Made by a program: the position numbers and the translations under genes. The notes below the pieces were generated by a model. The model had not been told where the DNA came from and searched no databases. It was given only the letters and a program-made list of their open reading frames with translations. Positions 48,713 to 57,047 of a stretch of 64,000 nt of DNA are shown here, in pieces. Position 1 is the first letter of the stretch. Each line of letters begins with the position of its first letter. The DNA is from Chlorobiota bacterium (lineage in GTDB: Bacteria; Bacteroidota; Bacteroidia; Bacteroidales; VadinHA17): assembly GCA_013152085.1 (NCBI GenBank), contig JAADHC010000030.1, positions 10,018 to 74,017 of the forward strand. The letters are read 5' to 3'.

Positions 48713-48720
48713 TATTTTTG
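48713..48720 (+). promoter_or_regulatory. -7 element TATTTTTG upstream of histidine kinase gene
   Basis: A TAnnTTTG match 24 bases before ATG 48745. It supports that start over the TTG at 48718, which lies inside the element. Confidence 0.5.
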
Positions 48721-48744
48721 TCACCTGTTAAAAGAGTTAGGTGC

Positions 48745-49911
48745 ATGAACGTATATTCAAAAAAGATAAAATGGAAATTCTTATTGTTCCTCCTCGCGGT
48801 TATTATTGGCGTTTCCTCTTTATGGTATACGGGGAAGTTGGTTCGTGAACTTAAACAGGAAGAACGTCGAAAAGTTGAATTGTGGGCCGGGGCCACTCAG
48901 AAATTAATTGAAACAGATGTCCCGGGTGATCTTGACTTTCTTTTTCAGGTTATTGAAAATAATACTACGGTGCCGGTTTTACTGGTAGACGAAGATACGT
49001 TAATTGTCTCCAGCAGGAATATAGACGAATCCCGGTTTGATCATCGGAAAACACTTGTTCGAGAAGTTAAGAAAATGGGGAAAAAGCATCCTCCATTGGA
49101 AATAAGTCTGGGTGACGGCAAGAAAAATTTTATTTATTATAAGGATTCGACAGTACTGACAGAACTGGAATGGTTTCCTTATATTCAGTTGAGTGTGATA
49201 ATCCTTTTTATAGGCGTATCTTATCTGGCTTTTAGTGCAGCCCGGAAATCAGAGCAGAATCAGGTATGGCTGGGCTTATCGAAGGAAACGGCCCATCAGT
49301 TAGGCACTCCCACTTCATCCCTGTTATCCTGGCTTGAAATAATTAAGGAAAAAATCTCTGATGAACATTTACTGAAGGAATTGGAGAAAGATATCATACG
49401 CCTCGAAAAAATCACCGAGAGATTCTCTAAAATCGGTTCTGTACCGGCACTGGAAAATCAGGATGTAAACCGGGTAATCAGAAATGCCGTTCAGTATATT
49501 ATAAGAAGAACTTCGGAGAAAGTACAGGTGCGATTGAATTTTTCTGATGACGAAAACGTTTGGGTGCCCATCAATGCGGAACTGTTTGAATGGGTAATCG
49601 AGAACTTGTGTAAAAATGCTGTTGATGCGATGAAGGGAGAAGGAATGATCGATATTTATGTTACTGATATAACCCAGTTCGTATATATAGATGTACAGGA
49701 TTACGGTACGGGTATCCCAAAATCCAGGTTTAAAACAATCTTTAAACCCGGGTATACGACCAAGGAAAGAGGCTGGGGACTCGGCCTTTCATTATCGACG
49801 AGGATTATTGAAGATTATCACGGCGGAAAAATTTTTGTCAATTATTCTGAGCCCGGCAAAGGATCTGTTTTCCGCATTGTACTGAAGAAAACACCTAATC
49901 TTCCGTCCTGA
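48745..49911 (+). CDS. Sensor histidine kinase
   Basis: The 388-residue kinase has a short extracytoplasmic sensor between two membrane helices (about 11-29 and 144-162), an H-box with histidine in GLSKETAHQLGTPTSSLLSW and a GHKL ATPase (N box NLCKNAVDAM, G1 DYGTGI, G2 GWGLGLSLS). The TAHQLGTP box differs from the common SHELRTPL type. No response regulator is adjacent, so it is an orphan kinase. A U32 protease gene starts 14 bases after the stop. Confidence 0.9.
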   Translation: MNVYSKKIKWKFLLFLLAVIIGVSSLWYTGKLVRELKQEERRKVELWAGATQKLIETDVPGDLDFLFQVIENNTTVPVLLVDEDTLIVSSRNIDESRFDHRKTLVREVKKMGKKHPPLEISLGDGKKNFIYYKDSTVLTELEWFPYIQLSVIILFIGVSYLAFSAARKSEQNQVWLGLSKETAHQLGTPTSSLLSWLEIIKEKISDEHLLKELEKDIIRLEKITERFSKIGSVPALENQDVNRVIRNAVQYIIRRTSEKVQVRLNFSDDENVWVPINAELFEWVIENLCKNAVDAMKGEGMIDIYVTDITQFVYIDVQDYGTGIPKSRFKTIFKPGYTTKERGWGLGLSLSTRIIEDYHGGKIFVNYSEPGKGSVFRIVLKKTPNLPS

Positions 49912-52001: not shown

Positions 52002-53063
52002 TTATCTTCCGGAAGGGGAAGCTTTGGAAAATTCAGGGATCCCTGATATTTCCCGCAGAATTCTTTCTGCATTTTTAATTGGATCCTGATTTTCCAATAT
52101 GATATGGTGTATTGTTCTGCGACGATTTTTCCCCATTGATAACCGGTATGCTTTATCATAATAATATAATAAGAGGCCGGCAGCCTTTTCATAGTGGCCT
52201 CTTTCTATGGCTTCAATGCTTTCCCGGGTTATTTTTCCACCCAGTCTTTTTTCAAGTTTCAGGACATTTCGTGCAAGAACACCGATATCTTCAAGACTGT
52301 ATTCTTCAACCAGATTGCGGATGCGTATATCTTGTGGTACCTCAATTTCAACCAGGGGACTTTGTTTCATCGGAACAAATAATTCGTCCGGGATAAAAAT
52401 CCTGCCTATAGGCTTACTTTCGTCTTCCAGCCATATCCGTTTTGTTTTATCCAGTTTCCACCACTGATCAAATAAAAGATTTTCAAAGTGTTCGGTGGTC
52501 GGTTGTGGCTTATCAGACCAGCCCCCGAATACCGAACCCCGGTGCCGGGCCAATGATTCCAGATCAATAACCTGTTCTCCCCGTTGGGAAAGTGCATGTA
52601 AAAGCAGTGTCTTCCCACTACCGGTCATTCCGCCGAGAACAATAATATTGGCTGGTTTAGAAAATGATTCCCTGGCAAAACGCCTGAAAGCTTTATAACC
52701 TCCTTCGAGAACATAAGTATTCATGCCGGCACTATCAAATAACCAACCCAATGAATTGCTTCGTTGCCCGCCTCTCCAGCAGTACAAAAGCAGTGCCTCT
52801 CTGCCAGACAACAACTCCCGGGCCTTTTTCAGAAACCCTGCCATTTTGGGTCCGGTAATCCGAAGACCTTCATCAAAAGCTTCCTGTTTTCCGGTTTGTT
52901 TATACAAGATGCCTATGCGGTTGCGTTCCTCATCTGAAAAAAGCGGAATATTTACAGCCCGGGGGATATGACCCCGGTTGTATTCTGATGGAGAACGTAC
53001 ATCAACAACCGGATTTGAAGAGGCCAGATCTAAAAATCGCAAAACAGGAACAATCTGTTTCAT
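52002..53063 (-). CDS. mnmH: tRNA 2-selenouridine/geranyl-2-thiouridine synthase (MnmH/SelU)
   Basis: MnmH replaces sulfur by selenium at the wobble uridine of some tRNAs, using selenophosphate via a geranylated intermediate. The 353-residue protein has a rhodanese domain with catalytic Cys in LLYCWRGGQRSNSL and a P-loop domain with Walker A GGMTGSGKT, then LARHRGSVFGG. ATG 53063 (MKQIVPVLRF) is preferred to the frame start at 53102. It implies the cell makes selenophosphate, but selD is not in the window. Confidence 0.92.
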   Translation of the reverse strand: MKQIVPVLRFLDLASSNPVVDVRSPSEYNRGHIPRAVNIPLFSDEERNRIGILYKQTGKQEAFDEGLRITGPKMAGFLKKARELLSGREALLLYCWRGGQRSNSLGWLFDSAGMNTYVLEGGYKAFRRFARESFSKPANIIVLGGMTGSGKTLLLHALSQRGEQVIDLESLARHRGSVFGGWSDKPQPTTEHFENLLFDQWWKLDKTKRIWLEDESKPIGRIFIPDELFVPMKQSPLVEIEVPQDIRIRNLVEEYSLEDIGVLARNVLKLEKRLGGKITRESIEAIERGHYEKAAGLLLYYYDKAYRLSMGKNRRRTIHHIILENQDPIKNAERILREISGIPEFSKASPSGR

Positions 53064-53147
53064 AAAAAATATAAATTTTAACCAAATGCACATCCTCACC
53101 AACCAATGGTGTAATCAAGATCATATGCCCACAAGGTTAAAGCGAAA

Positions 53148-56000
53148 TTATTGCTTGTTTACGGAAAAATGCTTGATCAAAACCCTTTTGATGTCATCTA
53201 TTTTTACCGGTTTTGGAATATAGTCATTCATACTGGACTCCATAGACCGTAACCTGGTCTCCTCGGACACATCTGCCGTTACAGCGATAATTGGAATGTC
53301 AATACCTTCATTACGGAGATCACGCGTTGCTTCCCAGCCATCCTTTATGGGCATCATTACGTCCATAAAAATGATATCATATTGATTCTTTTTAGCTTTT
53401 TCAACCGCTGTACTTCCGTCATCGGCAATGTCAACTTCAAACCCCAGATTCTTAAAATAAACCTGCATGACCTTCTGATTGATTTGATTGTCTTCTGCAA
53501 TCAGTATTTTAAGATCACGGGAAATGGTGTCAAGGGCTTTTGGGGAGACATCTTCCATGACAATGGCATTAAAGTTATCCTGAATAATATTAAACAATTC
53601 AGAACCCTGTACCGGCTCGATAAGGTAATAATCAATACCGAGTTTCCGGGCCCGGACATAGTTTCCTTTCCTGTCGTTTGAACTGGTGAGTATGATCAGA
53701 TATTTTGTAGTAAGCTTTCGGTCATAAAGTTCCTGGATTAGCTCAAAACCATCAAATGTTGGTGAATCCTTAATGATTAACAAGTGATATTTCTGTTCCG
53801 GATGGGCTGCATTGGCTTCCAGCAAATGTATAATCTTGTCCATTTTGAAATTGACAATGGCCTGTACGCCAAATTGTTTTAGCTGTTGCTGGATATAATT
53901 ATTAGGCTCATCATTATTCTTGATGATTAAAGCTTTGATCTGTTTATAGCTTGTAATCTGATCCAGATAGGTGTCCTTCTTCAACTTTTCGTTGGAAAAT
54001 ACAGGAATCTTTACCCTTACCAGGGTCCCGGGCGTTTCTCCTTTCTTCTTTCCGCGAACCGGACTGATGAATTGAATATCCCCGTTCAGCATGTCCAAAA
54101 GCTGGATGGTGATGGATATTCCTAATCCGGAACCGGTAATGTTCTTCTTTTTTTTACCATTGGTTTTCAGGAATGGTTCAACTTTTTTCTTGTTGAACAA
54201 TTCAAGTTGTTCTTTAGTTAATCCGATTCCGGTATCTTCAATATCAAACTGAAGATGTAATTTTCCATAGATTTCTTCTGTCTGTGAAACACGGACTTCA
54301 ACTTTCCCTGCTGTGGTATGTTTCAGTGCATTGTCAATCAGTTTTGTAAGAACCTGCCTGATTTTAAAGGGATCTCCGATAAAATGGTCTTTTACATTTT
54401 CATCAAACACGGTCTGAAATGATAATTTTTTATCTATGGCAACCGGCTTTAAGCTTTTAAAAACCATTTTTAATTCCTGTCGCAACCTGAAAGGAATTTC
54501 TTCCAGCATCATTTTTCCTGCCTCAATCTTTGAAAACTCCAGGATATCATCAACAATAGATAGAAGAAGATCGGCAGAATACCGGATATCTTTGATAAAT
54601 TTTTCATCCGGCTTGACCTCCGAAGACCTTAGCAACGTACTGGCCTTGTCAATAATATTTCCAAGAGGCACCCTGATTTCCTGGCTCATATTGACCAGAA
54701 GCTCTGTTTTGGCTTTAACTGCTGCGGCTTCCTGGCGCCTGGCTTTTTCAAGGGGCGTTACATCGATCAGGGCTTCGAGCGTCGCCTGTTTTCCTTCAAA
54801 AAGGATCGGTATCTCCTCACGCAACAGTACCCATTCGGTATTGTCTTTCTCGAGGTAAAGGAAATTACTTGTATCAGCGATGGTCCCCAGCGTTCCTTCA
54901 ATCTGCTTTTTATTCCCCGTAAAAAACCAGTCGCCAATCACATTTCCTTCTTCAAGTTTATCTCCGGTTATGGAAAAAGTAGATCTTGCATTTTCATTAA
55001 TAAAAAGAATATGGTGGGACTCAGCAAGCACCATAATGCCTATGGGAATATTGGCCAGAATCTTTTTCAGGTTTGCTTCCGAGCTTTTTAACCGTTCCTC
55101 TTCAGATTTTTTACGCTGCAGCATCAGGAAAAACACAGTAATAATCAATGCAATGAGAATTAGCGTTAGAGAGGCTATCGTTATGGCATTTTTTATAATG
55201 GCGTTGAGAATAACGTCGTTTTGTAAAGAAAACACGATCCCGAAATCCCGGTTGAGAAAATGCGTCGGATAATAAGCTGAAATGACATCTGATTCTTTTC
55301 CTTCGATCGATACTTTGTGCTTTAAAGCTCCCTGAAAACCATCGATAATTTCATCGGCAATTTTCCCTTGGTCAAAGATCTGTAGCCGATCAACTCCCAA
55401 ATTGTTATATATGATATGCCCTTTGTTGTTAAGGATCCATTGCCATTGCGTATTCCCCAGGTGGGATTTCTCAAGAACAGAAGCGATATAATGAATGTAG
55501 TCCAGCGATACCAAAACGTTACCGGAAACACGACGACCTGCAAAGACAGGTAAAACGTACTGGAAAGTGTTATCCTTCACTAGAATCTGATCCCTGGTTA
55601 ATAATTCCCGCTGGTTGTGTGCCGTAAAAACATTGGCTATAAACTTGTTCTTTGGATCCTTGTACAAAGAAAACACGTGCCTGGTGTCATCATAATAAGT
55701 TATACTGGTAACCAAGTCTCTATACTTGGAATAAAAAACCTCAAATTTCTTGGAAATATCCTGCTGAACTTTTTCATCAACGAAAAAACGATTCATTTTC
55801 CCGGAAAAAAGAATAAAATTGAGATCACTGGTGAATGTCGAACTGGTTTGTTCGATTTCGTATCCGGAAATTTGTGTTTGTTTCAGAAGGAAATTCTTCT
55901 GAAAATCAACCTGCAATTCATAAATATTGAAATAATAATAAATATTGGATGCGACGATCAATAAAATGATTATAGGGGTTAGTATATAAATCTTTCTCAT
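53148..56000 (-). CDS. Hybrid histidine kinase-like protein without the phospho-acceptor histidine
   Basis: The 950-residue membrane protein has two helices (about 4-26 and 272-293) around a Cache-like sensor (about 30-265), a PAS region (about 310-420), a dimerisation domain (about 430-495), a GHKL ATPase (NALKH at 557-561, DTGIGL at 589-594, GSGLGIS at 623-629) and two receiver domains. The H-box reads NMSQEIRVPL: residue 440 is Gln (codon CAG, 54681-54683) where His is needed. The first receiver (about 689-808) has Ile743 at the Asp position; the second is intact (Asp880, Lys930). ATP binding may remain, but self-phosphorylation should not. Confidence 0.9.
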   Translation of the reverse strand: MRKIYILTPIIILLIVASNIYYYFNIYELQVDFQKNFLLKQTQISGYEIEQTSSTFTSDLNFILFSGKMNRFFVDEKVQQDISKKFEVFYSKYRDLVTSITYYDDTRHVFSLYKDPKNKFIANVFTAHNQRELLTRDQILVKDNTFQYVLPVFAGRRVSGNVLVSLDYIHYIASVLEKSHLGNTQWQWILNNKGHIIYNNLGVDRLQIFDQGKIADEIIDGFQGALKHKVSIEGKESDVISAYYPTHFLNRDFGIVFSLQNDVILNAIIKNAITIASLTLILIALIITVFFLMLQRKKSEEERLKSSEANLKKILANIPIGIMVLAESHHILFINENARSTFSITGDKLEEGNVIGDWFFTGNKKQIEGTLGTIADTSNFLYLEKDNTEWVLLREEIPILFEGKQATLEALIDVTPLEKARRQEAAAVKAKTELLVNMSQEIRVPLGNIIDKASTLLRSSEVKPDEKFIKDIRYSADLLLSIVDDILEFSKIEAGKMMLEEIPFRLRQELKMVFKSLKPVAIDKKLSFQTVFDENVKDHFIGDPFKIRQVLTKLIDNALKHTTAGKVEVRVSQTEEIYGKLHLQFDIEDTGIGLTKEQLELFNKKKVEPFLKTNGKKKKNITGSGLGISITIQLLDMLNGDIQFISPVRGKKKGETPGTLVRVKIPVFSNEKLKKDTYLDQITSYKQIKALIIKNNDEPNNYIQQQLKQFGVQAIVNFKMDKIIHLLEANAAHPEQKYHLLIIKDSPTFDGFELIQELYDRKLTTKYLIILTSSNDRKGNYVRARKLGIDYYLIEPVQGSELFNIIQDNFNAIVMEDVSPKALDTISRDLKILIAEDNQINQKVMQVYFKNLGFEVDIADDGSTAVEKAKKNQYDIIFMDVMMPIKDGWEATRDLRNEGIDIPIIAVTADVSEETRLRSMESSMNDYIPKPVKIDDIKRVLIKHFSVNKQ

Positions 56001-56114: not shown

Positions 56115-57047
56115 CTACTCTCTGTATTTTTTGTCTTCTTCGAAAAACAAATTCAGGTAACTGTTATATCTTGACTGGCTGATTTTTCCTGTTCCTGCGG
56201 CTTCCTTTACGGCACAACCCGGCTCGTGTGTATGGGTACAGTTATAATAGTTACACGAGGCTGAAAAACGGAAAATTTCAGGGAAAAAATGATACAGTTC
56301 CTCCTTGTCAAAGCCAACCAGGCCAAAACCTTTAATACCTGGTGTATCAATTACATAACCACCGAAATTTAAACGAAACATTTCACTGTAGGTGGTGGTG
56401 TGCCTTCCCGATTGGTGGTATGTTGACAGGGAATTGGTTTTCAGGTTCAGGCCTGGTTCAACAGTATTGATCAGGGTAGACTTCCCCACTCCGGAATTGC
56501 CTGCAATCAGCGAAGTTTTTCCGGCCAATAATGTTTTGAAATGATCAATGTTTTTCTTATCCGGAACAGAGGTTCGTAATACACGGTAACCAACATCTGT
56601 GTATATTTTTATAAGGTTTTCCAGCCGGTTAAGGAGCAGGGAATCATAAAGGTCGGTTTTATTGAAAACAATACAGACCGGAATACGGTAAGCTTCGGCC
56701 GAGACAAGAAACCGATCGATAAACTCGGGATAGGTTTTCGGTTTGATTAATGTGGCAATCAGGATGGCCTGATCAATATTGGCTGCCAGGATTTGTGTGG
56801 CGTGTGAAAGATTGGCTGACCTTCTGATAATATAATTCCTTCGGGCGGAAATGCCGGTGATCATACCCGAATCGGTTTGGTTATCATGGATAAAAGTTAC
56901 CTGATCTCCCACAACAACAGGATTTGTGTTGCGTCCGCCATCCAGGCGAAAACGACCCTTCGCAGCACACCGGACGCTACGATGTTCCGGGGTTTCTACC
57001 CAAAACCAGCGCCCGGTAACTTTAGTAACAATCCCGGTATTTTCCAC
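56115..57047 (-). CDS. rsgA: Ribosome small-subunit GTPase RsgA
   Basis: RsgA is a circularly permuted GTPase that checks late 30S subunit assembly. The 310-residue protein has an OB domain (GIVTKVTGRWFWVETPEH), G4 FNKTDLYDSL, G1 GNSGVGKSTLIN, G3 DTPGIKGFG and the C-terminal zinc site CNYYNCTHTHEPGCAVKEA. It starts at GTG 57047; no in-frame ATG is available, and a TAATTTTG element lies just upstream. Confidence 0.95.
   Translation of the reverse strand: MENTGIVTKVTGRWFWVETPEHRSVRCAAKGRFRLDGGRNTNPVVVGDQVTFIHDNQTDSGMITGISARRNYIIRRSANLSHATQILAANIDQAILIATLIKPKTYPEFIDRFLVSAEAYRIPVCIVFNKTDLYDSLLLNRLENLIKIYTDVGYRVLRTSVPDKKNIDHFKTLLAGKTSLIAGNSGVGKSTLINTVEPGLNLKTNSLSTYHQSGRHTTTYSEMFRLNFGGYVIDTPGIKGFGLVGFDKEELYHFFPEIFRFSASCNYYNCTHTHEPGCAVKEAAGTGKISQSRYNSYLNLFFEEDKKYRE

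Follow-up and report, generated by a model that had tools for sequence, protein, structure and literature searches.

What does a hybrid histidine kinase do once its phospho-accepting His is gone? The question is raised by one gene of the window, the whole stretch of 64,000 nucleotides that was analysed. Its minus-strand ORF (56000..53148) starts with ATG and holds an intact frame of 950 codons, and its codon 440 (ctg at 54681-54683 of the plus strand) reads CAG, for Gln. Pfam searches of the 950-aa protein returned HisKA (residues 430-495), HATPase_c (542-667) and two Response_reg stretches; a dCache_1 match was weak and under its cut-off, and no PAS match was found. The gene, its domains and its neighbours are the following:

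53148..56000, minus strand: hybrid sensor pseudokinase gene, 950 aa (ORF, Pfam and orthologue matches)
55221..55805, minus strand: probable extracytoplasmic sensor, dCache-like, residues 66-260, flanked by two hydrophobic helices
54762..55049, minus strand: PAS-like domain, residues 318-413 (secondary structure of the AlphaFold2 model)
54522..54758, minus strand: DHp helices, HisKA, residues 415-493 (Pfam and AlphaFold2 model)
54681..54683, minus strand: codon 440, CAG, Gln where the phospho-acceptor His is expected (sequence and alignment to solved kinases)
54669..54671, minus strand: residue 444, where Val replaces the HExxT phosphatase Thr (alignment)
53994..54497, minus strand: CA (HATPase_c) domain, residues 502-669 (Pfam and AlphaFold2 model)
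54342..54344, minus strand: residue 553, where Lys replaces the first N-box Asn (alignment)
53574..53936, minus strand: first receiver, residues 689-809, a pseudo-receiver that lacks an acid pocket (alignment and model)
53166..53507, minus strand: second receiver, residues 832-945, with E836, D837, D880, T908 and K930 all present (alignment and structure comparison)
53361..53363, minus strand: phospho-acceptor Asp880 of receiver 2 (alignment)
56115..57047, minus strand: rsgA, the conserved upstream neighbour (flanked orthologue loci)
52002..53102, minus strand: mnmH (selU), the downstream neighbour, conserved in most of the family (flanked loci)

The sensor probably lies outside the cytoplasm, as the hydrophobic pattern of the protein suggests. 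The AlphaFold2 model (mean pLDDT 80.5) gives the order TM-sensor-TM-PAS-DHp-CA-REC1-REC2, with nothing beyond REC2; the TM and PAS labels are our reading, and PAS is inferred from the modelled fold of residues 318-413. The pTM of 0.41 makes the arrangement of the domains in the model unreliable. The fold is ordinary and its parts are all known; what is unusual is the serial, convergent loss of the kinase inside one orthologous gene.

In the alignment to solved kinases, Q440, within the motif NMSQEIRVPL, stands at the phospho-accepting His, which bears out the substitution reported in the preliminary description. That description also held the ATP-binding boxes and the reading frame to be intact. 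This is correct for the frame, for N557, for DxGxG (D589, G591, G593) and for GxG (G625, G627), but not for the N-box, which reads RQVLTKLIDNA against RQxxxNLxxNA and has K553 at the first Asn; in addition, the ATP-lid stretch carries an insertion (605-609). ATP may still be bound through the retained N557 and G-box glycines. All the other kinase H-boxes matched in the window genome carry His, which rules out a genome-wide loss.

Four sister-genus species (identity about 64-65%) carry the same CAG codon, and so the orthologues proposed as a check point to a conserved loss and rule out a recent mutation or base error. Of the 117 genomes that belong to the same GTDB family, 111 have a match to the gene (E <= 1e-60), nearly always a single one, and six have none; the residue counts for the family are drawn from the genomes with a match. 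Across the order Bacteroidales it is present in 39 of 393 sampled genomes (E <= 1e-100). The locus order is rsgA-gene-mnmH: of the 56 flanked loci tested, only L234 and L243 show no rsgA, and mnmH follows the gene in most of the family. The family genes are therefore orthologous by position and by sequence. One orthologue (L218, G034:C213:9394-12241) is broken into two frames exactly at the H-box, either truly or by an assembly error.

An assembly or sequencing error, or a decaying pseudogene, has in its favour that the window genome is a draft of 75 contigs. Against this stand the shared codon, the unbroken frame, the wide presence in the family and the low dN/dS of His-less close pairs, which is 0.06-0.17 in DHp plus CA (a single Tyr pair of very near relatives reaches 0.22, and values are higher for some His-bearing pairs whose dS is very low). 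Conservation and dN/dS rule out a pseudogene, and decay or error together can be given practically no weight.

The loss extends far beyond Gln. The phospho-acceptor position of 155 aligned sequences, including eight His-bearing hybrid kinases from outside, is occupied by H in 61, Y in 58, F in 23, Q in seven, R in four and K in one, with one gap. Thus Tyr, Phe, Gln, Arg or Lys replaces His in 93 of about 145 orthologues, while the published frequency of HisKA domains missing the His is 0.9% (PMC12632262). The codons at the position are CAT/CAC for His, TAT/TAC for Tyr, TTT/TTC for Phe and CAG for Gln. Even close species disagree, with H, R and Y within one genus and H and Q within another; His is retained in the other families of the order whose sequences were read. 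A tree was made from 85 sequences with the H, N, G1, F and G2 regions left out, and symmetric parsimony on it gives five changes of His state. Provided that a lost His never returns, we count six losses: in f15, in the g12/g13/g14 group, in g10, in one g8 species, in two g11 species and in g1 plus g3, which holds the window. Judged from these sequences, His has been lost independently in several branches of one family of uncultured Bacteroidales.

Other parts of the core have decayed as well. The first N-box Asn is lost throughout the clade of g1, g3, g8, g10 and g11, and in two His-bearing species next to the window's clade (L039 and L046) it is replaced by His. In the g7/g15 group (L054, L055, L057 and L165) the phospho-acceptor His is kept and the second N-box Asn, N557, is lost, which means that His alone is no sign of an active kinase. 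Kinase damage thus appears to precede the loss of His in two lineages, in a reading of present-day sequences rather than a reconstruction. Many sequences of the Tyr and Phe genera alter N557, the second G1 glycine and the G2 glycines. With receiver 2 as the reference and His-bearing branches as the unit, evolutionary rates are 2.1 times as high in DHp (5-95% interval 1.3-3.1) and 1.9 times in CA (1.3-2.4) for the window's clade; 4.1 and 1.4 times, respectively, for f15, where the CA interval includes 1; and 0.78 and 1.1 times for the Tyr and Phe genera. By these rates, constraint on the core has slackened in the window's clade; in the Tyr and Phe genera it either never slackened or has been imposed anew.

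The same residues bear on the view that the protein is a kinase still, through another acceptor residue or in trans on the His of a partner. The N557 and G1/G2 glycines retained in the window protein would suit it, but the first N-box Asn is gone from the whole clade, many Tyr and Phe sisters have also lost N557 and the G1/G2 glycines, and CA runs faster on the window's branches; we regard it as unlikely.

Pseudo-histidine kinases are proteins that have lost one or more kinase functions and are retained in two-component networks. The window protein, as its residues and their evolution indicate, is one of them: a catalytic residue is missing, and the protein is conserved and selected. The pseudokinase proposed in the preliminary description is strongly supported in this way, with a His loss that is recurrent, conserved and under purifying selection. 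Its further proposal, an ATP- or signal-dependent scaffold, is compatible with the data as to the signal and weakened as to ATP by K553 and by the roughly twofold faster DHp and CA relative to the receiver. Its last one, a sensor that acts only as a phosphatase for its own receiver, is disfavoured, and so is the same role for the receiver of a partner. HisKA phosphatase activity does not need the His (PMC12632262) and RetS has such activity (PMC5992135), but the HExxT Thr is Val444 here and Ile or Leu in all six sister-genus sequences examined, and the T428A change abolishes the activity of RetS (PMC5992135). The lost Thr argues against a phosphatase in the window's clade, where we consider this role improbable, somewhat more so than a remaining kinase; it is possible in those Tyr and Phe genera that keep Thr.

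The receivers show opposite patterns. Throughout the group, receiver 1 lacks the acid pair found in active receivers. In receiver 2, D837, D880 and K930 are kept in all family orthologues readable there, with D or E at 836 and T or S at 908. Its best match in the structure comparison is SLN1 bound to the HPt YPD1, in a match list filled by receiver domains and not covering the sensor.

The cores of ShkA, GacS, RetS and DivL are all among the solved-structure matches; ShkA (6qrj) was the best in Foldseek, with GacS and RetS among the best. ShkA of Caulobacter shares the order DHp-CA-pseudoREC-REC, and its pseudo-receiver gates the HisKA domain (PMC12632262), but it is an active kinase with the H-box His. 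The best NCBIfam matches were hybrid kinases of the BarA/RcsC/LuxQ/TorS type; the window protein scores far under the family cut-offs and, unlike them, has no HPt domain after the last receiver.

RetS of Pseudomonas aeruginosa likewise has a membrane sensor, a kinase-dead HisKA/HATPase core and two receivers, the second a working acceptor (PMC5992135). The window protein shares the intact REC2 and, as predicted from its residues, the dead core. Both a kinase and a stand-alone HPt are linked to this kinase-dead hybrid (PMC5992135). The RetS REC2 takes phosphate from GacS-P and, according to work cited in that paper, also from HptB-P. On the other hand, RetS keeps HExxT and has lost its G-boxes, whereas the window protein has lost His and Thr (Gln440, Val444), so that HExxT is absent, and keeps the G-boxes. 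The comparison, made at the level of the cores, gave no evidence of descent from RetS.

DivL of Caulobacter also has its phospho-acceptor His replaced, by Tyr, keeps its CA motifs largely and works without kinase activity (PMC4211667). It is described as PAS domains plus a histidine kinase module without receivers, whereas the window protein has two; and Tyr is found across the DivL clade bar one Ala, whereas H, Q, R, Y, F and K all occur within one orthologous group here. DivL regulates CckA by an allosteric route, unlike RetS.

Then, we propose, with a probability of about 0.55, that the window protein is a hybrid sensor that has lost its own kinase signalling and whose sensor-controlled receiver 2 would exchange phosphate with an HPt phosphorelay or another kinase. 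Without the His, the protein can neither autophosphorylate in the ordinary way nor relay phosphate forward from its own DHp; the sensor, the dimer core and a chemically complete receiver 2 remain and are conserved, which together with the precedent of RetS favours a sensor-gated acceptor. The protein has probably changed its role: where it once sent phosphate signals, it would now receive or gate them. An external ligand would alter the PAS/DHp core, and the state of the core would control the uptake and loss of phosphate by receiver 2. The phosphate might come by reverse transfer from the stand-alone HPt or, alternatively, from an active hybrid kinase that would form a mixed dimer with the protein and donate from its His. 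As a result, the HPt/STAS phosphorelay would be drained or gated, in the way that RetS acts on GacS and is able to act on HptB in Pseudomonas.

The main rival is pure allostery in the manner of DivL, in which the DHp/CA core would bind a phosphorylated receiver or another kinase and signal by conformation, the chemistry of receiver 2 being secondary. Although phosphorylation of a His is impossible there, the Tyr and Phe genera hardly vary in the motif S-Y/F-E-I-R-T-P-L, and DivL has the same H-to-Y change, a conserved patch at that place, and binds DivK~P (PMC4211667). The DHp of these genera is not faster than receiver 2 (0.78 times), which means that the function there may be docking and not phosphate exchange. 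However, a scaffold alone leaves unexplained the phosphorylation residues of receiver 2 retained in nearly all orthologues, and it fits poorly with the fast drift of DHp in the window's Gln/Arg clade; as a full account of the protein it seems to us rather doubtful.

For the sensor-gated acceptor, the HPt-STAS pathway is one candidate partner. The single HPt match in the window genome is a stand-alone protein of 131 aa whose gene adjoins a STAS gene. HPt matches were found in 108 of 114 family genomes. The two genes were called as a pair in nine of the ten regions read, and in L263 both reading frames lie side by side on the minus strand; the phospho-His of HPt is invariant in the nine sequences aligned, Tyr and Phe genera included. 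A strong match to the HPt-linked STAS, in a list compiled by eye at about 100 bits, is present in 33 of 39 genomes of the order with the gene and in 23 of 354 without it, or by family in 11 of 14 and seven of 106, both comparisons being uncorrected for relatedness. HptB-like phosphorelays join an HPt with a STAS partner and a REC-PP2C regulator (HsbR-like). The candidate partner, and not the window gene itself, is HptB-like in being a stand-alone HPt next to STAS with a conserved His. The window genome has sixteen SpoIIE matches, and no REC-PP2C (HsbR-like) partner was recognisable among the few SpoIIE proteins whose first residues were inspected. Counting against the link, the HPt could serve only the other hybrid kinases of the genome.

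More tentatively, the gene could belong to a phosphorelay hub found across the Bacteroidales. One syntenic hybrid kinase would there be undergoing repeated conversion, by varied substitutions, into a drain that takes phosphate from a single HPt-STAS pathway under the control of its sensor, and in two sister lineages the N-box would have decayed before His was lost. If this less probable extension were true, one orthologous gene would offer a naturally evolved series leading from kinase to pseudokinase. DivL, RetS and other bacterial pseudo-histidine kinases have mostly been studied as single end products. Here a single gene, largely syntenic, single-copy in the family and with its receiver preserved, seems to display the steps among living relatives: a full kinase, a broken N-box with His, and a His-less form with Q, R, Y, F or K. 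Comparing them makes the fate of a hybrid kinase after kinase loss directly testable. The literature searched contained no description of this gene family, of His-less hybrid kinases in Bacteroidales or of recurrent conversion in one largely syntenic gene.

Some minor observations were also made. Receiver 1 (53574-53936, minus strand) carries a largely conserved S-S-N stretch and YL-x-x-P, and so may have a binding role of its own. L254, a distant f7 relative outside the family, has Asn at the phospho-Asp position of receiver 2. At L262:7242-7996 (G000:C6) the stand-alone HPt gene is followed by the STAS gene beside a clpB-like gene, an arrangement conserved across the family. The window holds a second histidine-kinase-like gene (48718-49911, plus strand) with an intact His (AHQLGTP), which adjoins a U32-peptidase-like gene in a conserved neighbourhood.
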